This document shows positions 22,010 through 54,292 of a DNA stretch of 64,000 nucleotides, piece by piece. The stretch's first letter is position 1; every line of letters starts with the position of its first letter. This DNA comes from Gonatopus flavifemur. Taxonomy: Eukaryota; Arthropoda; Insecta; Hymenoptera; Dryinidae. The notes below the pieces were generated by a model that worked only from the letters and a program-made list of their open reading frames with translations, did no database searches and had not been told where the DNA came from. Where the stretch lies: contig JAFFJZ010000007.1 of assembly GCA_018340375.1 (NCBI GenBank), forward strand, positions 372,001 to 436,000. The letters run 5' to 3'. Both the position numbers and the translations under genes were made by a program.

Positions 22010-22191
22010 TGTCACGTCCAGAGATATTCGAAGAATATTTCTTTCAATGACATATGGAAGGGATTAATATGAAATATCAATACCTAAAAATATAAGTTCC
22101 CCTATTTTACGTCATGGACAAGGATGGGGAGAAACAGAACAGTTGAAAAAGGAAAGTTGAAATAACGACAGTGAATTACAATAAAAACAAT

Positions 22192-22197
22192 TTTATT
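22192..22197 (-). terminator. Polyadenylation signal AATAAA overlapping a stop codon (3' LTR)
   Basis: On the minus strand the last codons of the 131-residue ORF read GAA TAA, and the following bases complete AATAAA, so signal and stop overlap. Cleavage would fall near 22170 and set the R/U5 boundary. Inference from sequence only. Confidence 0.65.
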
Positions 22198-22588
22198 CAG
22201 AAAGACATTTGAATAAATCGATATAAGATCGTTCGTTTTCCGTCAAACTCAACAATTTCAGATCAGAGTCTGAGATTTCAGTATATTTACCTAGTAATGA
22301 AATACAATTTATGCAATCAAAAAACTCCTTATTACTGATTCGACAACTATTGCATTTATCGATGTGATAGAATTTCTTGATTAATCTAGCCTGATATTCT
22401 TCTAATTTTTGTATTTTCTTTAATATATATATCTGGAGTCGATTGGATCGAGAGGTATTCCTTTCCAAAGATTCGAGGAGTCGCTTCGAAACCTTATTAT
22501 TAGACTTATTCTTTTCTATTGATTTGTTAATCAATTTAATCTTTTCATTCACGAAAATAAGTCTCTTGAATATCTCTAGATCCAACAT
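22193..22588 (-). CDS. LTR-encoded ORF-b, 131 residues (3' LTR copy)
   Basis: The ATG lies at 22586-22588. The first 85 residues are Lys/Glu/Leu-rich and predicted coiled coil. Then comes the zinc-type pattern CNSC-x9-CINC followed by SLLGKYT. The C-terminal 55 residues align without gaps to ORF-a (22635-22982) with 19 identities by my count, including all four Cys and the LL-x-KYT motif, so the pair arose by duplication. The protein is the same in both LTRs. I recognise no named family; nucleic-acid or protein binding through the Cys cluster is plausible. It is the second ORF after the LTR promoter and its stop overlaps AATAAA. Confidence 0.72.
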   Translation of the reverse strand: MLDLEIFKRLIFVNEKIKLINKSIEKNKSNNKVSKRLLESLERNTSRSNRLQIYILKKIQKLEEYQARLIKKFYHIDKCNSCRISNKEFFDCINCISLLGKYTEISDSDLKLLSLTENERSYIDLFKCLSE

Positions 22589-22634
22589 CGAGAGAAAATA
22601 TAAATATATGAAAAGAAGGTGAGGAAGAATAGAA

Positions 22635-22982
22635 TTAGAACAATGATTTATTCATATGAATGTGCACCAATTCCTTACGTGTTAAATTCATTTGCTCTAA
22701 CTCGTCACTGTGGAATTGAGTGTATTTTTCCAATAAATCTACACAACGTTTGCATTTGTAAAATTCTACCTTGGTTAATTTACAAATACGACATCTATTT
22801 ATTTGTCTCTTTTCCAATACTTTGTAAGATTGTTCACAAGATTCTAATTTCTTCCTTTCCTTCCTTAAACCACACCAGATTTTATAAGCTATTTTAGAAT
22901 CTAAATTATTTCGAAGCAACTTTGTTTCTCGGATCTTGATACGATCTTTTAAAAGCTCAATTTCAGGTTTTAATTCATTCAT
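22635..22982 (-). CDS. LTR-encoded ORF-a, 115 residues (3' LTR copy)
   Basis: The ATG lies at 22980-22982. Residues 1-65 are highly charged and coiled-coil-like (ELLKDRIKIRETKLLRNNL). They are followed by CRIC-x9-CKRC, then DLLEKYT and an acidic tail. It precedes ORF-b by 46 nt in another frame, so expression of both from one RNA would need splicing, reinitiation or separate transcripts. The sequence is the same in both LTRs. It lies about 760 nt downstream of the inferred start site, inside R. The function is unknown; small cysteine-rich accessory proteins of complex retroviruses are an analogy only. Confidence 0.72.
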   Translation of the reverse strand: MNELKPEIELLKDRIKIRETKLLRNNLDSKIAYKIWCGLRKERKKLESCEQSYKVLEKRQINRCRICKLTKVEFYKCKRCVDLLEKYTQFHSDELEQMNLTRKELVHIHMNKSLF

Positions 22983-23058
22983 ATTCCATTACTAGAATAC
23001 ATACATGGTCTTGTTTGGTATTACTTTAACTGTTATAGTCTCTAATTAACAGTTGCGA

Positions 23059-23280
23059 GATTCCAGCCAACTGAATTTCCCACAACTACCAATTTTTGAC
23101 ATTCAAACAATTACTCGTGTGATTCCAGCCAACTGAATTTCCCACGAATAATCGTAAGTGAGTTAAATTTGGAATTACCAATTAATATGTGAGACTCCAG
23201 CCAACTGAATTTCCCACACAATTAATTGGTGATAGACTCAATTGACATCTGAGAAATTCTAGCCAACTAGATTTTTCCAA
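23059..23280 (-). repeat. Four-copy repeat in R (3' LTR), about 62-bp spacing
   Basis: TTCCAGCCAACTGAATTTCC occurs at about 23061, 23123 and 23196, with a degraded fourth copy near 23256. The copies sit just upstream (minus strand) of ORF-a, in the transcribed leader. Confidence 0.8.
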
Positions 23281-23460
23281 GTAGTCAATTTTCGTCACTA
23301 TGGGGTTGAATTTTAGAAGACAATGTATTCGAATATGAGATGAAACAAAGTTGCTCAATACACAAATTGAAATGGAATTATTACGATTTCTTCACTCAGT
23401 CAAATTTTCACTTACGAAGAGAAAATCCAAAATATGGCACAATAATCCTTGGAAGAAACA

Positions 23461-23680
23461 CAAAATATTTGAAACACCTTGAAAAAGAAGTACAAAATAT
23501 TTCTAACACTTTTGAAAAGAAACACAAAATATTTCTAACACTTTGGAAAGAAATACAAAATATTTCTAACACTTTGAAAAGAAATACAAAATATTTCTAA
23601 CACTTTGAAATGAAATACAAAATATTTCTAACACTTTGAAATGAAATACAAAATATATCTAACACTTTGAAAAGAATTTA
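23461..23680 (-). repeat. 31-bp tandem repeat in R (3' LTR)
   Basis: Seven copies of a 31-bp unit with the core CAAAATATTTCTAACACTTT have period 31-32. The period is half that of the neighbouring 62-bp repeat. A plus-strand 86-codon frame across it is an artefact. Confidence 0.85.
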
Positions 23681-23741
23681 ACTTGAACACTTTGAAATTT
23701 TGTAAGAAGAACGTTGAGCGCGAGGTGAAAACTGGAGCGGA

Positions 23742-23776
23742 GACTGACTTTTGGGCCCAATGCATGGGTTTTTATA
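23742..23776 (-). promoter_or_regulatory. Core promoter in 3' LTR: TATA box and TCAGTC initiator
   Basis: On the minus strand TATAAAAA occupies 23776-23769 and TCAGTC occupies 23747-23742. The first T of TATA is 31 bp before the initiator A (23745), the spacing expected for insect TATA/Inr promoters. In this LTR it would drive the LTR genes on their own. Confidence 0.75.
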
Positions 23777-24089
23777 CCATGAAAATCCATCATGGTGGAC
23801 TTGTTTTTGTAGATTAGAAAATGTACTTTGATCTATCGATGATGAATCCATGAACTGTCCTTATGACGCATCACAAGTACATGGTGTTCACTCGACGATG
23901 TCTTATCTATCGCGTGAAGTTTGGGTGAAAGTTCGCACTACAGTCTAGAATACGTGAAATGAATTTCACGATTGAACATTCTTTAATAGCAAATGAGTAC
24001 CAATTATTCTTATATAGTAAAATGTGTTATTTAATTTATTCGTTTGCTGGAAAGTATGTTCAATGCATTTAAAAGGAACGAGAACGTAT

Positions 24090-24710
24090 AATATATATAT
24101 ATATATTGAATATGAATATGTATATAGAATATTTATGCGTGAATATGTACATTGAATATTATGTAGAATATTCGTGTACGAATATGTATATGGAATACTA
24201 TATAGAATATTCACGTATGAATATGTACATTGAATATTACGTAGAATATTCATGTACGAACGTGTATATTGATTACTATATGCAATACTTACGTATGAAC
24301 ATGTATATGGAATATCATAGAATATCTATGCATGAATATGCACATCGAATATCTCATAGAATATTCATGTACGAATATGTACATTGAATACCATATAGAA
24401 CACTCACGTATGAATATGTATGCATGAATATGCACATTGAATATTTTGTAAAATATTCACGTGTGAACATGTATATAGAATATTATAGAATATTTATGCA
24501 TGAATATGTACATTGAACATTATGTAGAATATTCATGTATGAATATGCATATTGAATACAAATATGTATATTGAATATTGCATAGAATATGCATATGTAT
24601 GTCGAACATTGCATAGAACATGCACGTTGTGTATTACATAGAATATGCACATCGGACATTATAGAATATTACATAGAATGCAAGATATTCACATGAATAT
24701 GAATATTGAT
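24090..24710 (-). repeat. AT-rich degenerate tandem array in U3 (3' LTR)
   Basis: Some fifteen degenerate units of roughly 40 bp have the core GAATATGTACATTGAATATT alternating with TAGAATATTCATGTACG. The unit contains GAATATTC-type dyads. It sits upstream of the promoter, in the position of an enhancer or insulator. The 93-95 codon frames across it are artefacts. Confidence 0.8.
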
Positions 24711-24779
24711 CATTATATTTATGTGTGAAGCATAAGTGTAACATGTTTATAATTAACGAAAAAAAACGATTTCGTCACA

Positions 24780-24788
24780 CCTCCGCCC
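24780..24788 (-). other. Polypurine tract candidate
   Basis: The minus strand reads GGGCGGAGG directly before the TGTGACG start of the 3' LTR. It is short and has one C, but it is in the required place for plus-strand priming. Confidence 0.55.
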
Positions 24789-24830
24789 GTGTTTGACAAA
24801 ACTTAGGAGAAGTTTTGGCACAAACCATGT

Positions 24831-25019
24831 TTATATTAGTCCATATGGTCGTTTACCAATCGAGTTTTCAACAGGTTGATTGGTTTGTTCATCATTAGCG
24901 TTGTTTGTGTTGAAAACTGTTCGAGGTTTCTTTGTACGTAGATTCATTGGTGTATATAGTTGTTGATCTCCCACTGGAGCGGAACAGGTAGGTTGGGTCG
25001 TGTTAATCTCTGGATACAT
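24831..25019 (-). CDS. Short ORF overlapping the env 3' end, 62 residues
   Basis: It starts inside the last codons of env in another frame and ends before the polypurine tract. The product is polar and Pro/Thr/Asn-rich (QLYTPMNLRTKKPRT) with no membrane segment. It may be a separate small protein, or an alternative cytoplasmic tail of env displaced by a frameshift; the shift needed has the opposite sign to those in gag-pol. I cannot decide. Confidence 0.4.
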   Translation of the reverse strand: MYPEINTTQPTCSAPVGDQQLYTPMNLRTKKPRTVFNTNNANDEQTNQPVENSIGKRPYGLI

Positions 25020-27003
25020 GTTGTTTTGCCTTTGGGGTTCTTTTTACGATGGTCACCTTTTCCTCGTCTAAGACAAATTTGACCTGTCTAAGAGGAATTA
25101 CTTCGTCGTATGTTTGGTTTGACCTGGTGGTTTGACTGGTACCTGCGGTCTGGTTACCACCTGTAGTTCGTGGATCTTCAGTTGGTCGTCCCCTGGCCAA
25201 ATGTAAAAGAAGATTTGTCAACGAGTCCCAGATTGATCCCAATAAAAAGACAGAGCAACCATAGATTGAATGCAATGCATAGGCATGGATTATGGTATCT
25301 ATAGCGGCTTTGGCTAATTTGAAGCAGAGATACACTCCAAATAATCCTGCGGTGGCTGAACCGAATGTAATAAAAGAATTCCAGATTTTATTGAAAGTCG
25401 TTTTAGCGATCTTCTGGAGTGCTTCTTCGTCCAACAGGTGCGTCATTGATAAACCTGTTGTAATTATTGGTTGTCCAGTCATCCCTCTAGCAACGGTATT
25501 TAATACAGCTGATCGTTCGATTGGAAACATAATATTTTCTCTCAATCGTTCTAAGTCTTCGGAAGAATAGATTCCGCTTGTTGCTAAATGTTTTGGATTA
25601 ATATATTTCCATGTTGGTTTGGTCATCGGCTTCATTTCTATTGGTGCAATGGTGAGTGTTGGTTGTGGTGTCATTTTGTACCATCCGTCTTCTAGGAAGT
25701 ACATTGGAGAAACAAACGAATTGCAATCGATTTGCGTTCCAATTTTCGTAATTATGTGAGTTCTGGGCTTTAAGAACATGCTGTTGTTATTCATCTTGAT
25801 AGGTAATTCGTGGTAACATTGTTCTGTTCTGTGAGTCACTACTTCGACGGGTATACATTTGATTATATGAACAACTTCTCCAGAAGGTACAGCCATATAC
25901 CCTGAATTTTTGATTAAATGGAACGCAAATTCATCCGGTGAATGAATTGCGTTTGTCAGAGCGTTTCTCAACACTTGTTGTTCCAACTGACATCTGTGTA
26001 ACAACATATCTCTGTACAAGCTGGTCATTTGTGTACGAATATGTCTCTCAACATACACGAATTTGGAGTTTAGGTACGTGAATATGTCGAGATTTTCTGT
26101 TTCGGTTCTTTTGGCTTTGGCGAAAGTTTCTCCTTTTTGAGTTTCTAATATGAACAGTTTGGGATGTTCTGTTCTGATGAGTGTGTAACCACAGATCATC
26201 TGTTCTCCGACTTTCGATAGGACGAAGGTTGTCCCTTGAGTCGCTACGGAGTATATTACACTTGGATCTCCGGCTTGGTCTTCAATTTTGTTGGATAATC
26301 CTTCGTAAATAATGTCATAATCGGAGAATCGGCATACATCTTGCGAACTTGGTGTCCAATATGTATATCCGTCCTCCATATCAGTGCAATGTCCGTCATT
26401 GTAATGGCAAGTGAGGCCAGTGTGTAATTTCAATTTGTTGTTATCCAAATCTACGACAGCGCGATATGATTTTAATGTAATTTTTACCAGCGCCTGTACT
26501 ATAACATCTTCCCATGTTCCATACGGGTCGGAATATTGGGATCCGGAACAAGATCCATCACTGGAGATGCTTCCAGCCAACGTGGAATGTCTTATGTTGG
26601 TTTGGTTGATTTTTAATCCAGTGATTACGTTGTTGTGCGTTAGGTACAAATTGCCAGTGTTATGCATCTCGTCGCATTGGGTGGCTCCGACTTCTTGCAT
26701 ATATTCAGCGAATCCATTGTTGACTGCTTTTGTGTATGAAAACGTTCCACATCTGGATATAGTTCTTTGGATAGTCATTTTACATTGTCTAACCAAAGTC
26801 CTATCGTATTTAGACAGCTGCAGCAATTGTATGGGTAGGCTCGTTACGTTGGATTTTGTTTCTTTAATTTCGCATTCACCAACATTTATCAGAGATATCG
26901 TGGTGATATTCAGATTTGGGGTTCCACAATCGTATCCAATTAGTCCGAAGACGACGAAGTTTCTCATCAAGATGCAAAAGATGAAAGCTCGAACTATTAT
27001 CAT
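25003..27003 (-). CDS. env: Envelope glycoprotein, 666 residues, chuvirus-type
   Basis: An intact frame. Residues 1-22 form a signal peptide, after which the mature protein starts YDCG. The ectodomain has about twenty Cys and many N-x-S/T sites (NIT, NVT, NQT). I see no furin-type RxxR site followed by a hydrophobic fusion peptide, which argues against the baculovirus F-like envelopes of classical errantiviruses. Residues about 542-603 hold two hydrophobic segments, including ALHSIYGCSVFLLG, then a 63-residue tail. From memory of the families, overall length, the YDCG start and the C-terminal membrane region fit glycoproteins of chuviruses (negative-strand RNA viruses), which other LTR elements have captured. 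That assignment is inference; the class as a surface glycoprotein is firm. Confidence 0.85.
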   Translation of the reverse strand: MIIVRAFIFCILMRNFVVFGLIGYDCGTPNLNITTISLINVGECEIKETKSNVTSLPIQLLQLSKYDRTLVRQCKMTIQRTISRCGTFSYTKAVNNGFAEYMQEVGATQCDEMHNTGNLYLTHNNVITGLKINQTNIRHSTLAGSISSDGSCSGSQYSDPYGTWEDVIVQALVKITLKSYRAVVDLDNNKLKLHTGLTCHYNDGHCTDMEDGYTYWTPSSQDVCRFSDYDIIYEGLSNKIEDQAGDPSVIYSVATQGTTFVLSKVGEQMICGYTLIRTEHPKLFILETQKGETFAKAKRTETENLDIFTYLNSKFVYVERHIRTQMTSLYRDMLLHRCQLEQQVLRNALTNAIHSPDEFAFHLIKNSGYMAVPSGEVVHIIKCIPVEVVTHRTEQCYHELPIKMNNNSMFLKPRTHIITKIGTQIDCNSFVSPMYFLEDGWYKMTPQPTLTIAPIEMKPMTKPTWKYINPKHLATSGIYSSEDLERLRENIMFPIERSAVLNTVARGMTGQPIITTGLSMTHLLDEEALQKIAKTTFNKIWNSFITFGSATAGLFGVYLCFKLAKAAIDTIIHAYALHSIYGCSVFLLGSIWDSLTNLLLHLARGRPTEDPRTTGGNQTAGTSQTTRSNQTYDEVIPLRQVKFVLDEEKVTIVKRTPKAKQHVSRD

Positions 27004-29707: not shown

Positions 29708-30118
29708 TCAAATAAGATATTGCTGGATAGTCAACTGTTGTTGCCAATCTAATGTTGGCATAAAAATTTCCTCATACTGATTCAGCAGCATTTCTAATTC
29801 GGGGTGCTCCTTGCACATTGGACAGTGGTTGATTTGCGTTCGGAAAATCAACTGATCATAGCATTTTACACAACACAGTTCGTATATGTCTTTATCAGAT
29901 TTTCTTACGACATGTTTCTCGCTGTATTCTTCACATTGCCTCTCTTCATTTTCTACACACCATCCACATATTATTCTATTCCTCTGGTGATGATATCTAT
30001 ACACTACAGTGTCTCCCAAATGGAAACACCATGGCCCGTAACTTTGATCATTGAATTTCCTTTTGCGGTTCGATGAATCGAAAAACTCGTTTAAATCGAG
30101 ACCCACTGGTAGAATCAT
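29708..30118 (-). CDS. ORF-c, cysteine-rich protein, 136 residues
   Basis: It is open upstream to 30145, but the first ATG is at 30116-30118. Cys pairs occur as CGWC, then CCVKC, then HCPMC, spaced like a RING or treble-clef zinc module (the last two pairs are C-x2-C-x12-C-x2-C), followed by HPELEMLLNQYEEI. The final part loosely recalls the CxxC-x9-CxxC-LL-x-KYT of ORF-a and ORF-b, so it might be a distant third relative. It lies between integrase and env, 302 nt after the pol stop. It is a probable accessory gene of unknown role. Confidence 0.6.
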   Translation of the reverse strand: MILPVGLDLNEFFDSSNRKRKFNDQSYGPWCFHLGDTVVYRYHHQRNRIICGWCVENEERQCEEYSEKHVVRKSDKDIYELCCVKCYDQLIFRTQINHCPMCKEHPELEMLLNQYEEIFMPTLDWQQQLTIQQYLI

Positions 30119-30419
30119 TCTGATTATTAGGTTTTTCACACACACAAAAAAAAAATGATAATAGTTGTGATTTTCGACAGTTAACAGGAGAACTTTGTTA
30201 TCCTGTATGATTTTTTAATGTTCGTATGGATTTTCAGAAGTTGGATTTGGACTGATGTCACTCTTCGGAAGTCGGATTCAAACTGATGGGCTGAGGGTTG
30301 TTCTAGTCTTGTTTTCGTTTAAAGAAAATAGGAAAATCCTGTACTTTGGATGTACAGTCATCGTTTGTTTGTACTCTTAGTCCTTCGGAATGATTCATCG
30401 GTCGAAGATAATTTGGGTT

Positions 30420-31500
30420 TTAAGTGAGTTCGATACTCGTAGGGATGACTCTATCCAACGATATTATTTTCTCTTTGTTTCCGATTTGTAGTTTAACATT
30501 TTTATCGTCTATGATTTCTAGAATTTTGTAAGGCCCTTCGTTTGGGTCACTCAATTTTCCAACCTTAAGTCCCTTACGTAGAAAAACATATTGGCCAGCT
30601 TCTAATTGACATGGGTTGACTTTCTTGTCGTAATAGTGTTTTGCACGGGTTTTTGCAATCTCTAAATTTTCCTGGTTTCTTTTTGTAACTCATCCAATCT
30701 AACTATCAGTCGTATTAAGTAATCGTTGTAAGTAACCAATTGCTCAAAATCAGGTAGTGGTTGACTCGAAGGTATCATTGCCAATTTTCCAAAAACTAGT
30801 TCGTAAGGAGTGTGATTAGTGCTTTCATGTATGCTAGTATTATATGAAAAATAGCTAACTCAACCCAATCGTCCCATTCTGAATCTTTATGTATATACTG
30901 TCTCAGGTATTCCACTAGGACTATATGAGTTCTTTCTAGTGATCCGTTGGTTTGTGGATGAAAAGCTGTAGTTTTTATCTGGCGAATGTTCAATCTTTTG
31001 CTAAAATTTTCATTAGATTTGAAAGAAAATTAGTCCCTTGATCAGTCAATACTATTTTTGGAGCTCCATAAATGCAAACAAATTTTTTGAGAAAAACGTC
31101 GGCAATAGTTTGAGCGGTAGCATCTTTCATTACTGCTGCTATGCAATATTTAGTGAGTAAACACTGCATAGTTAAAATGTATCGATTACCGTGGTTTTGT
31201 GTAGGGGGAAAAGGGCCTACAACATCCAGTGCGATTTTTTCAAAAGCAGTGCAGGGTGAGTCCGTGATTGCCATGGGTTGTCTGATTTTTCTGCGTGTGA
31301 GCTTTTGAGCTTACATTGGAGACATTGCTGGATGTGATTTTGTATGTCTTCTTTCATATATTCCCAGTAATAGTTGGTTCTGATTCTATTATAGGTTTTG
31401 CTCACTCCTTTATGTCCACCTATGGACGATGCATGAGCTTCTTCAATAATTGAGTTTCTTTCCGTTATTGGAGGTTTGATCACAATTCCCAAGCAGAACG
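30420..31500 (-). pseudogene. pol: Pol: integrase with zinc finger, core and GPY/F module (frameshifted)
   Basis: The N-terminal HHCC finger appears as AHASSIGGHKG and CLQCK. The catalytic core shows LDVVGPFPP (first Asp), LTDQGTNF (second Asp) and HPQTNGSLERTH (Glu). The C-terminal part has the GPY/F motif GPYKILEII and ends with a stop at 30420-30422. Frame changes occur near 31280, 30990, 30850 and 30675; all have the sign of one missing base and all lie at or beside a short homopolymer. All catalytic residues are present. Confidence 0.88.
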
Positions 31501-32640
31501 TGATTTTCATGGGCACATTTCTCAAAGTTAATTTGAGTTGTTCATTGATTACTCTCCAAGAAATTTTGTTATTCAATTCTATCCTGGAAACGCTCAAACT
31601 CGAAATGTTATTTCTGATTGTTATTTCTCGTAATTCTTGGAGTGAATTTTGTAAATTATTTAGGATTTCTTCTGAAGTTGGAATATTTTCTATAGGCAAT
31701 ACACATGAACCCATATACCATTTATTTCCTTTCATCACTGCTTTACAGGTACCCAATTCCATTGGTCCAAAATAATCTATATAATATCGTTTTGAAAATT
31801 GATACGTTATTTCATCTATTGGTTTTCCTGCTTCATCTAGGAAGAATAAATAATTGTCCTTCCTCATCCATAACTGGTCCCTACTTTCATAAATATAGTT
31901 TCCAGCACTATTATTTTGTATGATTATATCTTCAATCATATTTTCATTGATTGTTGATTTGTCTGAATCAGAACCATCATTATCTACTATTAGATTTTCG
32001 TTAATTGTTGACTCGTCTGACTCAGAATCGTCATTATCTACTGTATCAATGTTGCTGTGATTTATAGGATTGGGAAGTTGTATGTCTTTTGATATTTCGG
32101 ATCTATCAGAGGGTTTTTTGATTGATTTTGGTGTTTTAAACGTTGCATTTTTTATCATGTCATTTCCTGAGTTAGATTGTTTCCGGTCTATTTTTGACCT
32201 CCGTTTTTTCTTCAATTCTAATTCCTCTCTATACTGTCTGCCTTCCTCTGTTAACTTCTTTGTTCGACAAGAACGTCTAGGTTCGATTTCGATCATTTGG
32301 TCATTTTCCTGGTGACTCAATGTCAACACCTTTGTCTCATCATCCGAGGGAAAGGTTTCACGTATGGGTCTGCATTGATGAGTCATCTTTCTACTTTCGT
32401 CGTCGGTACCCTCATTATCTCTTTGTTCGCGAAAACCGTCAGTGTCTACCGTTGCAGGTAATAAACCTTTGTTTATGAATGAAGTTCGCGTACTATTATA
32501 AGGGTTCGGTTCGATCTTATTGAGGTATAAGGTTTTCACGTATTCGATGGTGTCTAATGAATCCTCGTGTACCTGTCCTTTGTATTCAGGGGGCTCTTCA
32601 TTTTCCTGAATAGGATTTCGAGACAAAGCGTCGGCATTAA
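31500..32640 (-). CDS. pol: Pol: long linker between RNase H and integrase
   Basis: About 380 residues lie between ADALSRNP (end of RNase H) and the integrase finger. The first half is polar and basic (RRSCRTKKLTEEG, LKKKRRSKIDRK). An acidic block is duplicated: DNDDSESDESTINEN, then DNDGSDSDKSTINEN. The second half (YYIDYFGPMELG through VPMKITFCLG) is more globular and corresponds in position to the extra domain that errantiviruses carry here. The frame is open throughout. Confidence 0.7.
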
Positions 32641-33100
32641 CATTTGTTTTACCTGCTTTGTAGATCACATCGAAATCGTATTCTTCTAGTTTGAGTCTCC
32701 ACCTGGTCAGTCGAGAGGTTGGGTCCTTTGCTGTACGCATCCAAACCAAAGGTTTATGATCCGTTACAATAGTGAATTTACGACCGTACAAGTAAGGTCG
32801 AAACTGATTCACACAATATAGTATTGCAAGTGCTTCCTTTTCGTATGTGCTGTATTTGCATTCATTGGTATTTAAAAGTCTAGACGTATAGGCGCAAGGT
32901 TGATCCTTACCTATGGACCTTGACTCAATATTCCAGCGATTGCATAACCACTAGCATCGGTCGTCAATACAAAAGGCTTCGAAAAATCTGGATATTGCAG
33001 TACAGGTTCTTTGCAGAGTTTCTGTTTCAGAGTTTGAAAAGCTTTTTCCTGTTCTTCATTCCATTGAAAAGGCTCATCTTTTTTCAAAAGTTTAGTCAAA
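32640..33100 (-). pseudogene. pol: Pol: RNase H domain (frameshifted)
   Basis: TTDASGYAIAGILSQG gives the first Asp, YEKEALAILY the Glu and TDHKPLVWM another Asp of the RNase H site; WRLKLEEYDFDVIYKAGKTN is the typical C-terminal stretch of gypsy RNase H. Frame changes near 33105 and 32915 separate it from reverse transcriptase and from its own second half. Confidence 0.88.
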
Positions 33101-34475
33101 GGGAGAGCAGTTTTGAAAAATTATGGATGAATCTTCTGTAATAACCGGCTAGTCCTAAGAATTGCTTGATGTTTTTAGCGTTTTTGGGCTTAGGGAATTT
33201 TTCGACGGCTTCTAGATTCTTATGATTTGGTTTCAGGCCGTTTTCTGTAATTTGATGTCCTAGGTAAGAAACTTCATGTTTCAAAAATTCACATTTATCT
33301 GGTTGTAATTTCAAATTTGCTTGTCTTAATCTTTGGATTAAATTCAAATATTTCTTACGATGTTCCGAGAGTGTTTTTGCATAAATAACAATATCGTCTA
33401 AATAAACAAATAACTCTATTCCCTGTAATCCAGTTAAAACTACATCCATCAGATGTTGAAATGTAGCAGGAGCATTTCTTAACCCAAATGGCATTCTTGA
33501 AAATTCATAATGTCCATGTGGAGTGGAAAATGCTGTTTTGTGTCGATCCTTTTCGCTCATTTTTATTTGATGAAAACCTGAAGCCAAATCAAAAGTGCTG
33601 AAATATTTCGCACTGCCTAGTTGATCTAAAATTTCGGTGATATTAGGCAATGGATATGCATTCCCTATTGTTTTTTCATTTAATGCCCTAAAATCTAAAA
33701 CCATTCGCCACCTTTTATTTCCTTGTGAATCTGGTTTTTTAGGGACTATCCAAACCGGTGTATTATATGGTGATTGTGAGGGTTGGATAATTCCATCGTT
33801 CAATAGATCATTAACTTGTTTAAGAATTTCGTCTTTAAGTTGAGGTGGATATCTATATTGTTTTGTAATAATAGGTTGCTCATCTGTCGTGGATATTGAA
33901 TGTTCTATAAGATTTGTGCAAGTCAATTGATCTCCTGGTATGTGAAACAAATCTAAGCTTTCCTTGATTAAAATTTCAACCTCTTTTTGTTCCTCTGTAT
34001 TTAAATGATCTAATCGTAGTGATTCCATGGTTCGTTTCAATCTATCATCGTCTTGGATAGTGAATATTTTTCCTCTAGTAATTTTCTGAGAACATCTTTT
34101 CTTTCTTCCACACTTTCTATTGTTATTATTCAGGAATGGTGAACTTTCATGGATTTTCTCGACTTCGTGTATAATTAACTCTGGGGTAGTTAATTCTATT
34201 TCTCCATTCGTAGTGTTTATGACTGGTAAGTAGGTATAACCGTTACAGTTTTTAACTATTGCATTTCCAGAATAAACTCCTTCGACAGATTTTAGTCGAG
34301 GTAAATATCCTTCACGTAAGTGAGTATTCATCAATTTAACATGAATAATTTTTCGAGTTCGTGGAGCAATCTTATGAATTTGAGTTTTATTCAAAAAGGG
34401 TATCTTTGAATTATTTATTTCTAAACAATTTATCTCCCAGTTCAATTTAGCTCTGTGCTTTGCAAGAAAAGATGT
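33096..34475 (-). CDS. pol: Pol: reverse transcriptase
   Basis: The fingers and palm run from VWIVPKKPD through RMVLDFRALNEKT, FSTFDLASGFHQI and PFGLRNAPATFQ to the catalytic LFVYLDDIVIY. The connection KPNHKNLEAVEKFPKPKN and FLGLAGYYRRFI follow. This order and wording are those of Ty3/gypsy elements close to errantiviruses. The frame is open for about 450 codons. Its 5' edge joins protease by a frame change near 34490. Confidence 0.93.
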   Translation of the reverse strand, partial: TSFLAKHRAKLNWEINCLEINNSKIPFLNKTQIHKIAPRTRKIIHVKLMNTHLREGYLPRLKSVEGVYSGNAIVKNCNGYTYLPVINTTNGEIELTTPELIIHEVEKIHESSPFLNNNNRKCGRKKRCSQKITRGKIFTIQDDDRLKRTMESLRLDHLNTEEQKEVEILIKESLDLFHIPGDQLTCTNLIEHSISTTDEQPIITKQYRYPPQLKDEILKQVNDLLNDGIIQPSQSPYNTPVWIVPKKPDSQGNKRWRMVLDFRALNEKTIGNAYPLPNITEILDQLGSAKYFSTFDLASGFHQIKMSEKDRHKTAFSTPHGHYEFSRMPFGLRNAPATFQHLMDVVLTGLQGIELFVYLDDIVIYAKTLSEHRKKYLNLIQRLRQANLKLQPDKCEFLKHEVSYLGHQITENGLKPNHKNLEAVEKFPKPKNAKNIKQFLGLAGYYRRFIHNFSKLLSL

Positions 34476-34762
34476 TCCAACTATCCTGTCCTGTTCGATG
34501 GGAAATCATCTGGTACCACATGGAATTTGGTAACATTTCCTAAGAAATTTAGTAATATTTTGCCTAGGGTTGGCACAATGTCGGTAGAAATTCCTGATAG
34601 GTATAATATCTCACTAGAATCTATATCGGTTTTTCCTTGAATTATTGATTTCTTTATTAGACATGGACCAGCACCAGAATCCAGTAAAAATATAGTTGGT
34701 GAGAAAAGAGTGATGCAAATGGATGGTGAATCACGTTCGAGGGTTAATTTGACACTTGTGGT
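34476..34762 (-). CDS. pol: Pol: aspartic protease
   Basis: The active site reads FLLDSGAGPCLIKK, with the catalytic Asp codon at 34679-34681. The protease frame overlaps the gag 3' end and is displaced by -1 relative to gag, as in gypsy elements that make pol by -1 frameshifting. I found no obvious slippery heptamer. It ends VVPDDFP, where a one-base frame change leads into the reverse transcriptase frame. Confidence 0.8.
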
Positions 34763-35610
34763 ACTATCTCTGGTTCGTCTTGAATCACTGTTACTCGATT
34801 GTGGCTCGAATTGCTCGCCTCCCGTGTAGGGAGGCTCCGTGAGTTTCCCGGAGTTTGTTGGTTCGAGTTTGACCCACGCATTTGGGTTCCATTTGTGAAT
34901 CTATCATTTGGATTACGGTACGCGTTTTGATTTTGAAAACTGGTTTGACGTCGTTCATTATAACTGGATTGTATATTCTGGTTCTGGTATTGATATTTAC
35001 GGCAGTTATTTATGGTATGTCCGAAATTTCTGCAATATCGGCATTGAATATTCGAATAATTCGTATTCGGACGATAATTATTCTGATATTGATTCGTGGT
35101 TCTAAGGTTATTGAAAAATCGATCGGACAATTTGCAATTGACTGCTAAATGTCCCGTATTTCCACATTTTGGACATGGTTTGTTTATCCTACAGTCTTTT
35201 GCCTCGTGGTTCATCATTCCACATATTTGGCACTTTTTGATTACTTGTGCAGTTTTAATAGAAGAATAAAATCTGCATTCATCGGCCATATGCCCTATTT
35301 TCTTGCAAATTTGACAAATTTCTTTGCTACGAGTGAAGGAATTTGATCTGTCATTTAGATTTCTACATATTTTCGCATGGTGCCCAGTTTTGTGACATAG
35401 TTGACATCTGATTTCGTTTTTGTGGCTTGATGAGATACTATTGGGATCTGATTTATTCCCTTTACAATTACCGGACAATTCAGTGCTTCGTGATCCCCTT
35501 TTTTACAGATGACACATTTTGATTCGCTCAAAGCTAAACTTCTTAAGGCCTTTTGAGTAGAGGTTTCATTCTCCAAATCAATGGCTTCTGGTCCAGCCTT
35601 ATTTAAGTCA
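34744..35610 (-). pseudogene. gag: Gag: nucleocapsid region with six zinc knuckles (frameshifted)
   Basis: Five CCHC knuckles lie in one frame (CQLCHKTGHHAKIC, CQICKKIGHMADEC, CQICGMMNHEAKDC, CPKCGNTGHLAVNC, CRYCRNFGHTINNC). A sixth (CVICKKGDHEALNC) lies in the preceding frame; a frame change near 35465 separates them. The tail is Asn/Gln/Arg-rich. Six knuckles are many for the group, where one to three are usual. Confidence 0.85.
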
Positions 35611-35616
35611 GTTTTT

Positions 35617-36546
35617 TCATTTATTCGAGACTAATTTCTGAATCCAATCCTCTGATAAATGCCTTACAACACGCTGATTCGATCTCGGTTTTCTTTGCAT
35701 GAGAAATTTGATTTTGATTCTCGTTTTGTGAGCTTCGATAATTTGTGATCCCAAACTCCTAACCCTATTGAAAAATGTCGCTACATTTTCGTCGGTCCTT
35801 TGATATAATTGAGATAACTTTCCTATCAATTCAATACTAGATTGACGAGTTGCATATATTCCCTTTAATACTAGTAATAATTCGTCAATTGTGTCAGGAT
35901 TGGCAGTTCTGGCAGTTTGTAATGCTCCATCACGTAATTTAGATCTTATCAGAGTTGTCAAGTGTTTTTCAGATTCAGGGTTTATCAAATTTTTCGCATC
36001 CGTGCAGGCTGCTGCGAACTCTTGATAACTACTGCTTTCTGGGCCACCAGAATATGTTGGTATCAAAGAAACGGCTTCATGCAACCTTATGTATACCGGC
36101 GGATTGGCCATATTGTTGGTATTATTCTCTAATCTTGATTGAAGGGAAAATTGCAAATCGCTTGAGATTTCCAGTAGTTCTAATAGGTTGTTTCCCTTTA
36201 AATCAATTAGATTTGTGTTAACGGGGGTGCAATTTAATTGAGGTGAATCGTTATATGGAAACAAATTACTTGTTTGTTCTAATGATTCAGTAGAAAAATT
36301 TAATTCACGTGCTACTCGAGAAGAACCAGGAATTTCAACAAAGTTTTTTACAATATTTGGTTGTGGGTTATCGCTTAGATTTTGATTTTGGTTTTCTGAT
36401 TTTTTGGGTGAATGTTGCAATTTATTTCTCGGTTTAAAGGGATCTATGGGTTCTGTATTATTCTGCGAAGTTCCTGGGAATAAGACTTGTAATTTGTCTT
36501 CTTCGTTCAAATTTTTAGTTTGGCTTCGTAGAGTGGGTCCAGACAT
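35617..36546 (-). CDS. gag: Gag: matrix/capsid region
   Basis: The ATG lies at 36544-36546 (MSGPTLRSQTKN). Residues 1-145 are polar and low in complexity. From about 150 the capsid-like part begins (LHEAVSLIPTYSGG) and continues through ENVATFFNRVRSLGSQI. After about residue 275 the frame is lost: the conserved continuation, with the hallmark AFIRGL, lies in another frame near 35650, and a second change near 35630 leads towards the knuckles. The last 30 residues of the open frame are therefore not genuine. Confidence 0.85.
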   Translation of the reverse strand: MSGPTLRSQTKNLNEEDKLQVLFPGTSQNNTEPIDPFKPRNKLQHSPKKSENQNQNLSDNPQPNIVKNFVEIPGSSRVARELNFSTESLEQTSNLFPYNDSPQLNCTPVNTNLIDLKGNNLLELLEISSDLQFSLQSRLENNTNNMANPPVYIRLHEAVSLIPTYSGGPESSSYQEFAAACTDAKNLINPESEKHLTTLIRSKLRDGALQTARTANPDTIDELLLVLKGIYATRQSSIELIGKLSQLYQRTDENVATFFNRVRSLGSQIIEAHKTRIKIKFLMQRKPRSNQRVVRHLSEDWIQKLVSNK

Positions 36547-38237: not shown

Positions 38238-38255
38238 GTCCTACCGACTGCGCCA
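38238..38255 (-). other. Primer binding site, tRNA-Ser
   Basis: The minus strand reads TGGCGCAGTCGGTAGGAC, which matches the 3' end of insect tRNA-Ser (CCA plus acceptor stem) in all but the last base as far as I recall. It lies 14 nt inside the 5' LTR. Confidence 0.8.
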
Positions 38256-38451
38256 AAAATTTTACCCTATGTCACGTCCAGAGATATTCGAAGAATATTT
38301 CTTTCAATGACATATGGAAGGGATTAATATGAAATATCAATACCTAAAAATATAAGTTCCCCTATTTTACGTCATGGACAAGGATGGGGAGAAACAGAAC
38401 AGTTGAAAAAGGAAAGTTGAAATAACGACAGTGAATTACAATAAAAACAAT

Positions 38452-38457
38452 TTTATT
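38452..38457 (-). terminator. Polyadenylation signal in 5' LTR, overlapping the ORF-b stop
   Basis: Identical to 22192-22197. Genomic RNA must read through this copy, so it either has to be ignored near the cap or it yields short LTR-gene transcripts. Confidence 0.6.
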
Positions 38458-38848
38458 CAGAAAGACATTTGAATAAATCGATATAAGATCGTTCGTTTTC
38501 CGTCAAACTCAACAATTTCAGATCAGAGTCTGAGATTTCAGTATATTTACCTAGTAATGAAATACAATTTATGCAATCAAAAAACTCCTTATTACTGATT
38601 CGACAACTATTGCATTTATCGATGTGATAGAATTTCTTGATTAATCTAGCCTGATATTCTTCTAATTTTTGTATTTTCTTTAATATATATATCTGGAGTC
38701 GATTGGATCGAGAGGTATTCCTTTCCAAAGATTCGAGGAGTCGCTTCGAAACCTTATTATTAGACTTATTCTTTTCTATTGATTTGTTAATCAATTTAAT
38801 CTTTTCATTCACGAAAATAAGTCTCTTGAATATCTCTAGATCCAACAT
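38453..38848 (-). CDS. LTR-encoded ORF-b, 131 residues (5' LTR copy)
   Basis: Identical in protein to the copy at 22193-22588: N-terminal coiled-coil half, CNSC-x9-CINC cluster, SLLGKYT. In this LTR it lies upstream of gag in the proviral RNA leader, between the promoter and the primer site. Confidence 0.72.
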   Translation of the reverse strand: MLDLEIFKRLIFVNEKIKLINKSIEKNKSNNKVSKRLLESLERNTSRSNRLQIYILKKIQKLEEYQARLIKKFYHIDKCNSCRISNKEFFDCINCISLLGKYTEISDSDLKLLSLTENERSYIDLFKCLSE

Positions 38849-38894
38849 CGAGAGAAAATATAAATATATGAAAAGAAGGTGAGGAAGAATAGAA

Positions 38895-39242
38895 TTAGAA
38901 CAATGATTTATTCATATGAATGTGCACCAATTCCTTACGTGTTAAATTCATTTGCTCTAACTCGTCACTGTGGAATTGAGTGTATTTTTCCAATAAATCT
39001 ACACAACGTTTGCATTTGTAAAATTCTACCTTGGTTAATTTACAAATACGACATCTATTTATTTGTCTCTTTTCCAATACTTTGTAAGATTGTTCACAAG
39101 ATTCTAATTTCTTCCTTTCCTTCCTTAAACCACACCAGATTTTATAAGCTATTTTAGAATCTAAATTATTTCGAAGCAACTTTGTTTCTCGGATCTTGAT
39201 ACGATCTTTTAAAAGCTCAATTTCAGGTTTTAATTCATTCAT
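38895..39242 (-). CDS. LTR-encoded ORF-a, 115 residues (5' LTR copy)
   Basis: Identical in protein to the copy at 22635-22982. It would be the first sizeable ORF of the proviral transcript, about 760 nt after the start site. The coiled coil is followed by CRIC-x9-CKRC and LLEKYT. Confidence 0.72.
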   Translation of the reverse strand: MNELKPEIELLKDRIKIRETKLLRNNLDSKIAYKIWCGLRKERKKLESCEQSYKVLEKRQINRCRICKLTKVEFYKCKRCVDLLEKYTQFHSDELEQMNLTRKELVHIHMNKSLF

Positions 39243-39318
39243 ATTCCATTACTAGAATACATACATGGTCTTGTTTGGTATTACTTTAACTGTTATAGTC
39301 TCTAATTAACAGTTGCGA

Positions 39319-39540
39319 GATTCCAGCCAACTGAATTTCCCACAACTACCAATTTTGACATTCAAACAATTACTCGTGTGATTCCAGCCAACTGAATTTC
39401 CCACGAATAATCGTAAGTGAGTTAAATTTGGAATTACCAATTAATATGTGAGACTCCAGCCAACTGAATTTCCCACACAATTAATTGGTGATAGACTCAA
39501 TTGACATCTGAGAAATTCTAGCCAACTAGATTTTTCCAAG
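39319..39540 (-). repeat. 62-bp-spaced repeat in R (5' LTR)
   Basis: Four copies, as at 23059-23280. Confidence 0.8.
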
Positions 39541-39719
39541 TAGTCAATTTTCGTCACTATGGGGTTGAATTTTAGAAGACAATGTATTCGAATATGAGAT
39601 GAAACAAAGTTGCTCAATACACAAATTGAAATGGAATTATTACGATTTCTTCACTCAGTCAAATTTTCACTTACAAAGAGAAAATCCAAAATATGGCACA
39701 ATAATCCTTGGAAGAAACA

Positions 39720-39940
39720 CAAAATATTTGAAACACCTTGAAAAAGAAGTACAAAATATTTCTAACACTTTTGAAAAGAAACACAAAATATTTCTAACAC
39801 TTTGGAAAGAAATACAAAATATTTCTAACACTTTGAAAAGAAATACAAAATATTTCTAACACTTTGAAATGAAATACAAAATATTTCTAACACTTTGAAA
39901 TGAAATACAAAATATATCTAACACTTTGAAAAGAATTTAA
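39720..39940 (-). repeat. 31-bp tandem repeat in R (5' LTR)
   Basis: Seven copies, as at 23461-23680. Confidence 0.85.
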
Positions 39941-40000
39941 CTTGAACACTTTGAAATTTTGTAAGAAGAACGTTGAGCGCGAGGTGAAAACTGGAGCGGA

Positions 40001-40035
40001 GACTGACTTTTGGGCCCAATGCATGGGTTTTTATA
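40001..40035 (-). promoter_or_regulatory. Proviral core promoter in 5' LTR
   Basis: Minus-strand TATAAAAA at 40035-40028 and initiator TCAGTC at 40006-40001; the start A would be 40004, 31 bp from the TATA T. Confidence 0.75.
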
Positions 40036-40349
40036 CCATGAAAATCCATCATGGTGGACTTGTTTTTGTAGATTAGAAAAATGTACTTTGATCTATCGAT
40101 GATGAATCCATGAACTGTCCTTATGACGCATCACAAGTACATGGTGTTCACTCGACGATGTCTTATCTATCGCGTGAAGTTTGGGTGAAAGTTCGCACTA
40201 CAGTCTAGAATACGTGAAATGAATTTCACGATTGAACATTCTTTAATAGCAAATGAGTACCAATTATTCTTATATAGTAAAATGTGTTATTTAATTTATT
40301 CGTTTGCTGGAAAGTATGTTCAATGCATTTAAAAGGAACGAGAACGTAT

Positions 40350-40970
40350 AATATATATATATATATTGAATATGAATATGTATATAGAATATTTATGCGT
40401 GAATATGTACATTGAATATTATGTAGAATATTCGTGTACGAATATGTATATGGAATACTATATAGAATATTCACGTATGAATATGTACATTGAATATTAC
40501 GTAGAATATTCATGTACGAACGTGTATATTGATTACTATATGCAATACTTACGTATGAACATGTATATGGAATATCATAGAATATCTATGCATGAATATG
40601 CACATCGAATATCTCATAGAATATTCATGTACGAATATGTACATTGAATACCATATAGAACACTCACGTATGAATATGTATGCATGAATATGCACATTGA
40701 ATATTTTGTAAAATATTCACGTGTGAACATGTATATAGAATATTATAGAATATTTATGCATGAATATGTACATTGAACATTATGTAGAATATTCATGTAT
40801 GAATATGCATATTGAATACAAATATGTATATTGAATATTGCATAGAATATGCATATGTATGTCGAACATTGCATAGAACATGCACGTTGTGTATTACATA
40901 GAATATGCACATCGGACATTATAGAATATTACATAGAATGCAAGATATTCACATGAATATGAATATTGAT
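40350..40970 (-). repeat. AT-rich degenerate tandem array in U3 (5' LTR)
   Basis: Same array as 24090-24710. Confidence 0.8.
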
Positions 40971-41039
40971 CATTATATTTATGTGTGAAGCATAAGTGTA
41001 ACATGTTTATAATTAACGAAAAAAAACGATTTCGTCACA

Positions 41040-52260: not shown

Positions 52261-54292
52261 CAGGGTGGGGCATTTAAAGTGTCGTGGGCGTTTTTTCCAA
52301 AAATAAAATGTGATACGAGAAAATTTTTCGGACAAAAATTGTAGGGTATCGAGGGGGACATCCGATGGTGGCCTTGGCTTTGACCTCAAATCTCATCTTC
52401 AAGGGCATTCTGAGGTCAACTCTTGTTTTTTAAATAGCATCTCATATTTTTTACTGCAGATTTGGATTCTAGGTCAAAAACCAAGAAACTTTTGTCTGAA
52501 CCATTTTCCTGAAATCCGCAAAGATGGCGCTCTAATCGATATTGTTCCATACTGAATCTGACATTAGAATAACTCGAAAACGAAGGGTCTTGGAGGAGAA
52601 TGTTTCGGACAAAAGTTGTCTGATTCCAAGGGGGACCCCTTGAACTGAAACGGAGGTGATGGGGTATAACAGACAAAACACAACACATTTCAATCGTCTA
52701 CATCACTTGGATAATTTTAATGCAGTAGATGCTCAAAATGATGGCCTTCGACTTCAATACACATTTCAAAACGTTTTACAAAAGATTGCTGAACTCGTGC
52801 TAAAATATCTTCATTGATGCTCGCGCATGCATTGATGATTCGTTGATGCATATTCTCAGGTGTAGTCGGTGCTTGTGGATAAACTGTATCTTTTATGTAT
52901 CCCCATAAAAAAAAATCTGGAGAAGTAAGATCCGGAGAACGGGCAGGCCAATGAACTGGTCCACGACGTCCTATCCATCGTCCAGGATAATCTCTGACCA
53001 ATATTTCTCGAGCTGTGACTGCATAATGGGATGGACAACCATCGTGTTGATACCACATATTCAATCGTTCCTGAATAGGTATGTCTTCAAGTAATGTTGG
53101 AAGTACTTGATCTAAGAAATGTCTGTACTTCTCTCCATTTAGCGTATCTGCAATGAAGTACGGTCCAATTACTCGAGATCGAAAAATACCACACCAAACA
53201 TTCACAGCCCATTGTCTTTGATGCTCTACTTGACGTAACCATCTTGGATTTTCTGTCGCCCAGTAATGCATATTATGTCGATTTACTTGACCATGATTGG
53301 TGAACGTCGACTCATTAGAAAATAATATGTTGATGAAGTTGTTATTGTGCATTTGCGCTAGACCCCATCGACAAAACTGTACACGATTTTCGAAATCATC
53401 ACCGTGAAGGTCTTGATGCAAACAAATGTGATACGGATGGAATTTGTGACGTTTCAGTATTCGAAGAACACTTCTTCGAGAAATTCCCGAATGGAGTTCA
53501 ATTTCACGAGAGCTCACGTGTGGATTATTGGCTACTGCAGCTAGTACATTAACTTCCGCATTTTCTCCGCTAACAGTTCTCATTCGATATCGTTTTTCCC
53601 TTGTAACACTTCCCGTTTCTGAGAATAATTTTGTAATGCGTTGAAAATACCTAATGGATGGCGTTGTTCTTTCAGGAAATCGTTCTGCATACAAGTCATA
53701 TGCTTGTCTGGGGTTCTTATGCACTTCACCGTAAATGTAGATCATATCGATCTTTTCAGAAACCGTGTATCGGATATCCATGATTTTCAATTTGTCATAA
53801 ACCAAGTGATAATCAAATGTAACTGACAAACTGACTTTCAAAATCGTGAATTTTCACTGAACCCCGTCGTTTGTTTACATCGCGTGACCTCTGAATGGTG
53901 GTAATGTAGACGATTGAAATGTGTTGTGTATTGACAACTTTTGTACGAAACATTCTTTTGCAAGACCCTTCGTTTTCGAGTTATTCGAATGTCAGATTCA
54001 AAATGGAACAATATCGATTAGGGCGCCATTTTTGCGGATTTCAGGAAAATGGTTCAGACAAAAGTTTCTTGGTTTTTGACCTAGAATCCAAATCTGCAGT
54101 AAAAAATATGAGATGCTATTTAAAAAACAAGAGTTGATCTCAGAATGCCCTTGAAGATGAGATTTGAGGTCAAAGCCAAGGCCACCATCGGATGTCCCCC
54201 TCGGTACCCTACAACTTTTGTCCGAAAAATTTTCTCGTATCTCACTTTATTTTTGGAAAAAACGCCCGCGACACTTTAAATGCCCCACCCTG
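52261..54292 (-). mobile_element. DD41D element, copy 2
   Basis: 2032 bp, exactly the length of copy 1 at a constant offset of 41660, so no net indels separate them. Arms are 52261-52706 and 53903-54292. The right flank is TA (54293-54294) and the left flank is TT, so one base of the TA duplication has changed. The other arm of the host foldback shows the unoccupied site, reading TATATATGATTATTG. Confidence 0.92.
52717..53841 (-). CDS. DD41D transposase, copy 2, 374 residues
   Basis: Open from end to end. It differs from copy 1 at three residues that I see (Tyr for His in the EKR-MRT stretch, Pro for Gln after DTVY, His for Arg after ENM). It shares the Asn at the first catalytic position (FSNEST), while HDG and SPDLTSPD are intact. 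The same interpretation applies: good DNA-binding part, doubtful catalysis. Confidence 0.88.
   Translation of the reverse strand: MKVSLSVTFDYHLVYDKLKIMDIRYTVSEKIDMIYIYGEVHKNPRQAYDLYAERFPERTTPSIRYFQRITKLFSETGSVTREKRYRMRTVSGENAEVNVLAAVANNPHVSSREIELHSGISRRSVLRILKRHKFHPYHICLHQDLHGDDFENRVQFCRWGLAQMHNNNFINILFSNESTFTNHGQVNRHNMHYWATENPRWLRQVEHQRQWAVNVWCGIFRSRVIGPYFIADTLNGEKYRHFLDQVLPTLLEDIPIQERLNMWYQHDGCPSHYAVTAREILVRDYPGRWIGRRGPVHWPARSPDLTSPDFFLWGYIKDTVYPQAPTTPENMHQRIINACASINEDILARVQQSFVKRFEMCIEVEGHHFEHLLH

Follow-up and report, generated by a model that had tools for sequence, protein, structure and literature searches.

Two selected genes and a predicted hairpin array within the long terminal repeats of a Gypsy-type element from Gonatopus flavifemur

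Long terminal repeats (LTRs) are ordinarily non-coding. LTR-coded genes are rare, and their best-known case is MMTV sag, most of which lies in U3 according to the available text of PMC4667437. Within the window (the whole stretch of 64,000 nucleotides of the Gonatopus flavifemur genome that was analysed here), each LTR of a retroelement contains two adjacent open reading frames, ORF-a and ORF-b. The locus raises the question of whether these frames are genes and, if so, on what their products might act.

The element and its coding capacity

The element and all of its features given below lie on the minus strand of the window. The 5' LTR (38270-41039; locus L001; TGTGACG...CGTGACA) is followed by a primer binding site (PBS; TGGCGCAGTCGGTAGG, 38240-38255), while the 3' LTR (22010-24779; locus L004) is preceded by a polypurine tract (PPT; 24780-24791), which reads CACGGGCGGAGG in the window copy and AAAGGGGGGAGG in four other copies. 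Each LTR is 2770 bp long, and the TG...CA ends together with the target duplication AGAT (ATCT/AGAT at the 3' LTR) mark these repeats as real LTRs. They are identical in 2768 of 2771 aligned columns (99.9%), the differences being one substitution and two one-base indels, none within ORF-a or ORF-b; the insertion is therefore recent. U3, which is among the least conserved parts of the LTR, contains in both copies an imperfect tandem repetition with units of about 39 bp (40367-40858 and 24107-24598).

TG...CA LTRs, a target duplication of 4-6 bp, a PBS and a PPT, as found here, are features of the Ty3/Gypsy type (Metaviridae), and the reverse transcriptase stretch (33096-34505; RVT_1) is closest to Ty3 among solved structures, to which this comparison was limited (4ol8, 5e-59). 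The Pfam domains recognized in pol are RVT_1, RT_RNaseH and Integrase_H2C2, with RNase H placed before the integrase. The first open stretch of gag spans 35617-36546 and continues in other frames in the window copy. The env gene (25003-27003), which is open over 666 aa, encodes a fusion glycoprotein of the Jingchuvirales/Monjiviricetes (PF24664 Monjiviricetes_fusion, E 3.9e-238). On these sequence features we classify the element as a young representative of the Ty3/Gypsy type with a chuvirus-type env. A search of the genome yielded at least 67 env relatives, 67 of its 375 candidates having been scored; they fall into groups of about 91-100, 82, 61-67 and 44-48% identity.

The accessible part of PMC10084718 records no clear case in which a Gypsy element had captured a chuvirus glycoprotein, and gypsy elements with type III glycoproteins are mentioned in the part seen of PMC13172572. 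The window holds a Gypsy-type capture of a chuvirus env with both LTRs, a target duplication and an open env. A chuvirus-like env in a Gypsy-type element is shared with the Gypsy elements carrying type III fusion glycoproteins, whose description, in its accessible part, contains neither LTR genes nor hairpin arrays (PMC13172572). Anakin, a BEL/Pao element, has likewise captured a chuvirus-type env, but its LTRs are about 670 bp long, compared with 2.77 kb here, and the window reverse transcriptase is, among solved structures, closest to Ty3; LTR-coded genes are not mentioned in the portion of the Anakin description available (PMC7642597).

In the window copy the gag and pol region (30420-36546) is broken into several frames despite the 99.9% identity of the LTRs, which may reflect an assembly error or very recent decay; env and both LTR ORFs, unlike gag and pol, are open. 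An additional Cys-rich ORF of 145 aa, without a convincing Pfam match, is located between pol and env (29708-30145); it resembles the LTR proteins weakly, and an hhalign probability of 2.2 does not support kinship with them. Elsewhere in the window, two near-identical 374-aa ORFs with flanking inverted repeats were observed (11057-12181 and 52717-53841), which we take to be mariner/Tc1-like transposases.

ORF-a and ORF-b: paralogy, copies and selection

ORF-a (131 aa) is located at 38453-38848 in the 5' LTR and at 22193-22588 in the 3' LTR, and ORF-b (115 aa) at 38895-39242 and 22635-22982, respectively. In agreement with a preliminary description of this DNA, the two frames lie side by side and are letter-identical in both LTRs, so that each provirus carries them in two doses. 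The cysteine motif CxxC-x9-CxxC and the motif LL-x-KYT, claimed there for both products, are present in both, and BLASTP returns exactly the 19 identities that had been counted over the last 55 residues (E 4e-11). The gapped local alignment of the two proteins scores 130, compared with 39 +- 7.5 for shuffled sequences, none of which (0 of 2000) scored as high; their relatedness is therefore not due to chance. Judged by their alignment, ORF-a and ORF-b are diverged tandem paralogues.

Both products are basic (pI 8.7-9.5, computed for seven copies of each). As regards the coiled coil given for both in the preliminary description, their AlphaFold2 models predict two long helices before the cysteine region, with low confidence for ORF-a (mean pLDDT 59) and moderate confidence for ORF-b (72). 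Of the motif cysteines, three occur without exception in 14 of 14 diverse members, and the fourth in 13 of the 14; zinc is a possible ligand of the four residues. Structure prediction followed by Foldseek, proposed earlier as a check on the cysteine cluster, yielded the models, while the ORF-b model gave no match at E <= 0.001 in the PDB and BFVD. No convincing homologue of either protein was found in Pfam, PHROGs, the PDB, a protein collection or viral contigs. The best Pfam scores of the two ORFs were far under the cut-off (13.5 of 27 bits and 11.2 of 26 bits), and in this Pfam scan no sequence relation to a described protein family, such as MMTV Sag, was apparent. Similarity to the mitochondrial protein bL32m was also sub-threshold (E 0.31 and 0.16). 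Among 14 members scanned, the single-member weak Pfam matches (the best being Baculo_DNA_bind, an ssDNA-binding family, E 0.0002), a PIN_TASOR match in three members (best 0.0017) and the best PHROGs match, in one member (0.0084), were taken as chance, because they are not common to the members.

Searches of the same 636-Mb assembly yielded at least 60 matches to the LTR DNA (40 of 407 candidates scored) and at least 150 to the ORF-a protein (150 of 469 candidates scored), identity among the ORF-a matches listed ranging from 100% down to the level of ORF-b. We read 47 loci, taking the 30 that matched best in DNA, 5 more from the ORF-a matches and 12 diverged loci of our choice; ORF-a is intact in 37 and ORF-b in 32 of these, in a set that is neither random nor independent (it includes LTR pairs, L016 and L017 have the same flanks, and a few loci are cut or without the region). 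Both ORFs have been retained by diverged subfamilies of the LTR, and they occur in solo LTRs as well as in LTR pairs. Solo LTRs with matching 4-bp duplications make up 14 of 30 LTR rows (13 distinct flanks, since two rows share theirs), and both ORFs are intact in 10 of the 14, which bears out the proposal that the genes remain in solo LTRs. Full-length LTR pairs with matching duplications were recognized in L001/L004, L002/L005, L003/L007, L009/L010 and L012/L013. At C342, where ORF copies lie 26.7 kb apart and are 75-81% alike in pieces, the status of a single LTR pair is unsupported. At four diverged loci (L065, L066, L068 and L070) a second ORF-a-like paralogue occurs in tandem, and in L070 the two ORF-a-like paralogues are fused in one frame of 278 aa.

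Codon models gave an omega of 0.37 for ORF-a (26 distinct sequences; 2dlnL 96.5) and 0.34 for ORF-b (21 distinct sequences; 2dlnL 62.1), and omega = 1 was rejected for both. The ORF-a set drops L065 (second paralogue) and L070 (fused frame), and a run including them gave 0.39 and 0.36. For the near subfamily the values were 0.43 for ORF-a (18 sequences, 2dlnL 19.2, p 1e-5) and 0.62 for ORF-b (15 sequences, 2dlnL 5.0, p 0.026), the latter indicating weak selection; post-insertion decay weighs more in these two estimates. We quote the codon-model omega because NG86 is lowered by transition bias: its low values of 0.1-0.2, considered alone, are partly a product of strong bias (kappa 3.8-8.9), and neutral simulations give NG86 medians of 0.60-0.66 and 0.44-0.58. 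The near-subfamily LTR ORFs show a transition excess (kappa 7.6 and 8.9), for which cytosine methylation of the copies or editing could be responsible.

Sampling of intact ORFs biases omega slightly downwards, for which the neutral simulations allow by forbidding stops. At most 13 of 1000 simulations were as low as observed in 9 of 10 aligned pairwise comparisons (a set that leaves out L059, whose sequences are of unequal length and unaligned), the exception being ORF-b of L024, for which 193 and 288 of 1000 were as low, so that it does not fall under the neutral expectation. Among ORF-a variants found in more than one copy, synonymous changes prevail (10 N, 23 S), in contrast to the singletons (40 N, 26 S; Fisher p 0.006); in ORF-b the direction is the same without reaching significance (14 N/16 S versus 34 N/23 S, p 0.27). 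Such a pattern is that of genes under selection during replication of the element and decaying once inserted. The preliminary description had named dN/dS near 1, or frequent stops in otherwise young LTRs, as evidence that would speak against genes. Neither was observed, although broken copies do occur, young ones included (ORF-a is broken in L003 and L012).

The possibility that these are chance ORFs is ruled out by omega, paralogy and the conserved cysteines. It is also very improbable that recently captured fragments of host or viral genes are merely hitch-hiking in the LTR; such an origin would agree with our finding no homologue that traces an older one, but the frames are intact in many subfamilies, have omega well under 1, and display tandem paralogy and conserved cysteines, and hitch-hiking is contradicted by the selection tests. 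ORF-a and ORF-b are thus almost certainly selected genes residing inside the LTR.

The predicted transcription unit and its hairpin array

The LTR carries a TATAAAA box (40029-40035; kept in 34 of 35 copies) and, with TCAGT 29 bases beyond it, an initiator-like TCAGT(CTCC) at 39998-40006 (TCAGT kept in 33 of 35 copies), the predicted start of R. An AATAAA signal overlaps the ORF-a stop codon (38452-38457; present in 32 of 33 copies covering the site) and marks the predicted end of R. The exceptions are L025, without TATAAAA and AATAAA, and L015 and L027, without TCAGT. Transcription predicted to run from the initiator to just past AATAAA would place both ORFs between these signals, hence probably in R, and would make the LTR alone a gene unit. 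The leader from the initiator to the ORF-b start (764 nt), which includes 31-bp tandem repeats (family D2; 39708-39997), contains 5 ATG triplets where 13.9 are expected (0 of 500 shuffles as low), and its first 480 nt contain none compared with 6.9 expected. Such clearing suggests that ORF-b is reached by scanning.

Between these repeats and ORF-b we identified an array of four predicted hairpins (1, 39501-39543; 2, 39439-39481; 3, 39367-39409; 4, 39306-39348). Their tip is UUCAG-UUGG-CUGGA, hairpin 1 having a close variant, and their lower stems vary in sequence and mostly stay paired. All eight diverged leaders read (L080-L087) have arrays at the same place, before ORF-b, with three other types of tip: AACATTGATTCCAAGGATC in L080 and L086, AATCGTCATTGGTGTCGAG in L081, L082 and L085, and AAACATCATTGGTTGAGAAT in L083, L084 and L087.

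Covariation was analysed in three of the four tip classes, that of L080 and L086 being left out. In the main test, performed on 28 chosen units, 92.5, 95.7 and 87.5% of the cells are paired, compared with 29-49% in slid registers, and in each class none of 500 shuffles reaches either the paired cells or the covariation score observed. The other two measures are weaker: as many pairs changed on both sides were seen in 8, 19 and 23 of 500 shuffles, and as many further pair types in 55, 29 and 106 of 500. In a rerun with all 41 units of the same classes (21, 12 and 8), the pairing of the lower stems was equalled in 0, 0 and 1 of 1000 arm swaps; in the first and third class the units had been found by tips that include the upper stem, so that there the test is blind for the lower stems alone.

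Generic hairpin counts in the leaders are mostly not above those of shuffles; the case for the hairpins rests on the repeated tips with covarying stems. When motifs with a fixed 2x1 internal loop were sought in seven of the diverged leaders, none turned up, because the tips there differ. Rfam gave no match at gathering score within the window, and a sub-threshold match to snR11 over 39413-39586 (E 0.007, 23 bits versus 42) is not believed.

Taken together, the anatomy of the LTR, the selection on its genes, the covarying stems of three tip classes, their linkage and the parallel divergence across subfamilies form the observed basis for a model in which we place about half of our confidence, namely that the LTR is a stand-alone regulatory cassette, whose two small proteins would bind RNA hairpins of their own element and control its expression. 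Transcription from the initiator to AATAAA would include both ORFs at both ends of the genomic RNA; ORF-b would be translated by scanning and ORF-a by re-initiation or from a second mRNA. The proteins, with zinc bound by the four cysteines of each, would act in trans, and the effect of binding might be activation, export, packaging or repression. The hairpins could instead serve translation, dimerisation or packaging and be bound by host factors or Gag, and, since proteins and hairpins form one linked block, their co-divergence is also expected from linkage alone.

Small basic element-coded proteins with a structured RNA target are exemplified by Tat/TAR and Rev/RRE of HIV-1, TAR being located in R. 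The covarying hairpins of the predicted leader would be the counterpart of such a target. The likeness is one of logic only, binding of the hairpins being predicted here; moreover, Tat and Rev are encoded outside the LTR, have one target element each and are without any sequence relation that we found to the window ORFs. The cassette would represent a second route to element-coded regulation, besides that of the vertebrate complex retroviruses.

With MMTV sag the window element shares a protein gene within the LTR, duplicated with every provirus (PMC4667437, in the part available). However, sag is a superantigen gene in the U3 of a vertebrate betaretrovirus, whereas the present case concerns a Ty3/Gypsy-type element with two tandem paralogues that are predicted to lie in R, to be helical and Cys-bearing, and to be accompanied by a hairpin array. 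Our searches of open-licence papers brought up no report of protein genes in the LTRs of insect or Gypsy elements. LTRs are usually treated as non-coding control DNA; here they carry selected genes, probably with RNA targets, and a solo LTR may therefore function as a regulatory gene and be more than a scar, which matters for annotation, host silencing and the way in which related elements interact. The putative protein-RNA pair is directly testable, several natural versions of it being available within one genome.

Diverged relatives and exchange of the LTR

An env relative 67% identical to that of the window (C26, locus L090) is followed by a PPT and then by 17 tips of the ACTCGCG type, 10 of which have stems of at least 8 bp, compared with 0.4% at random positions (many of the tips are tandem copies, and about eight stems are distinct by eye). 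Next come an ORF with CEEC-x9-CPTC, recognized by the family profile (E 5.8e-8), and AATAAA; the PPT upstream and the AATAAA downstream constitute the LTR context seen for this ORF. The combination of a hairpin array and a Cys protein therefore probably extends beyond the subfamily of the window. Beside a 47%-identical env (L091, G000:C392:1003250-1007250), at about 2412-2777, we observed an ORF of helical appearance that contains CxxC and follows a splice-acceptor-like TTTTTCAG; its match to the family profile is not significant (E 0.42).

Two closer relatives permit comparison of the LTR with env, the comparison being based on env, the LTR ORFs, promoter, U5 and tips. The LTRs of that on C207 form a genuine pair, with 99.7% identity over 994 bases; its PBS is the same as in the window, and the two env genes agree at 93.4% of 1001 DNA positions (dN 0.011, dS 0.338). 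Its ORF-a and ORF-b are, by contrast, saturated at synonymous sites relative to those of the window, from which it follows that the LTR block is older than the split of the env genes. Identity of the promoter and U5 to the window is 0.67 and 0.83. The tips of the hairpins are not the same either, as seen in the sister copy L080 (the leader stretch of C207 itself, L089, being read only to its promoter). On C392, an env 93.0% identical to that of the window (dS 0.334) lies near an ORF-a of only 51% protein identity and a third tip class. We infer that this env and these ORFs belong to one element from their position, the U5 end not being found in the 250 bases past ORF-a. The mismatch in age between LTR and env of C207 is most simply explained by recombination between element lineages.

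These comparisons bear on a rather doubtful, though not far-fetched, alternative, according to which the LTR proteins are accessory factors directed at the host (for example at its silencing or antiviral defence) and the hairpins an unrelated cis element, for instance for packaging or translation. Divergence of the proteins between subfamilies is strong (dN 0.26-0.54 relative to the window ORFs), its contrast with the low dN of the C207 env would fit an arms race, and MMTV sag provides an example of an LTR gene acting on the host (PMC4667437, in its accessible part). However, synonymous sites of the C207 LTR ORFs are saturated too, and much of the divergence is thus explained by age or exchange and not by adaptive change. 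The adjoining of hairpin array and genes in all nine leaders read would also be left unexplained. The preliminary description had put forward both regulation and the countering of host defence; the former is favoured by the hairpins and by the promoter and polyA signals, while nothing was found for the latter.

In lambdoid phages, imm regions are known as exchangeable immunity blocks. A comparable arrangement, in which the LTR proteins repress elements with matching hairpins and swapping of the block provides escape from relatives, is quite unlikely in our judgement. It would account for the combination of closely similar env genes with saturated ORFs and different tips on C207, and with a strongly diverged ORF-a and another tip class on C392. 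Nevertheless, promoter and U5 of C207 have diverged as well, so that exchange of a whole LTR or differing rates also fit the data, and the C392 case depends on its status as one element. A broader version, which we consider unlikely, regards each LTR as a portable circuit made up of a promoter, a hairpin array and one to three fast-diverging RNA-binding proteins of a new family, recognizing only their own array. Kept in solo LTRs and exchanged between elements whose env is nearly identical, the circuit would serve for recognition and immunity and determine which elements regulate each other, as a retroelement counterpart of the phage regions.

The regulatory cassette model, in which the proteins would act in trans, is touched on by a further group of copies. 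Eight LTR copies match the LTR query to about position 1763 and again from 2353 (2464 in L023), with about 110 bases in place of about 590, so that the bodies of both ORFs are missing; they still align to the leader and U5, and the promoter aligns in most. Among these, L023 was read: it is a solo LTR flanked by a target duplication, in which at least one hairpin unit is kept and so are codons 1-35 of ORF-b. Loss of the ORFs with retention of a hairpin, as read in this copy, is what would be expected of derivatives served in trans.
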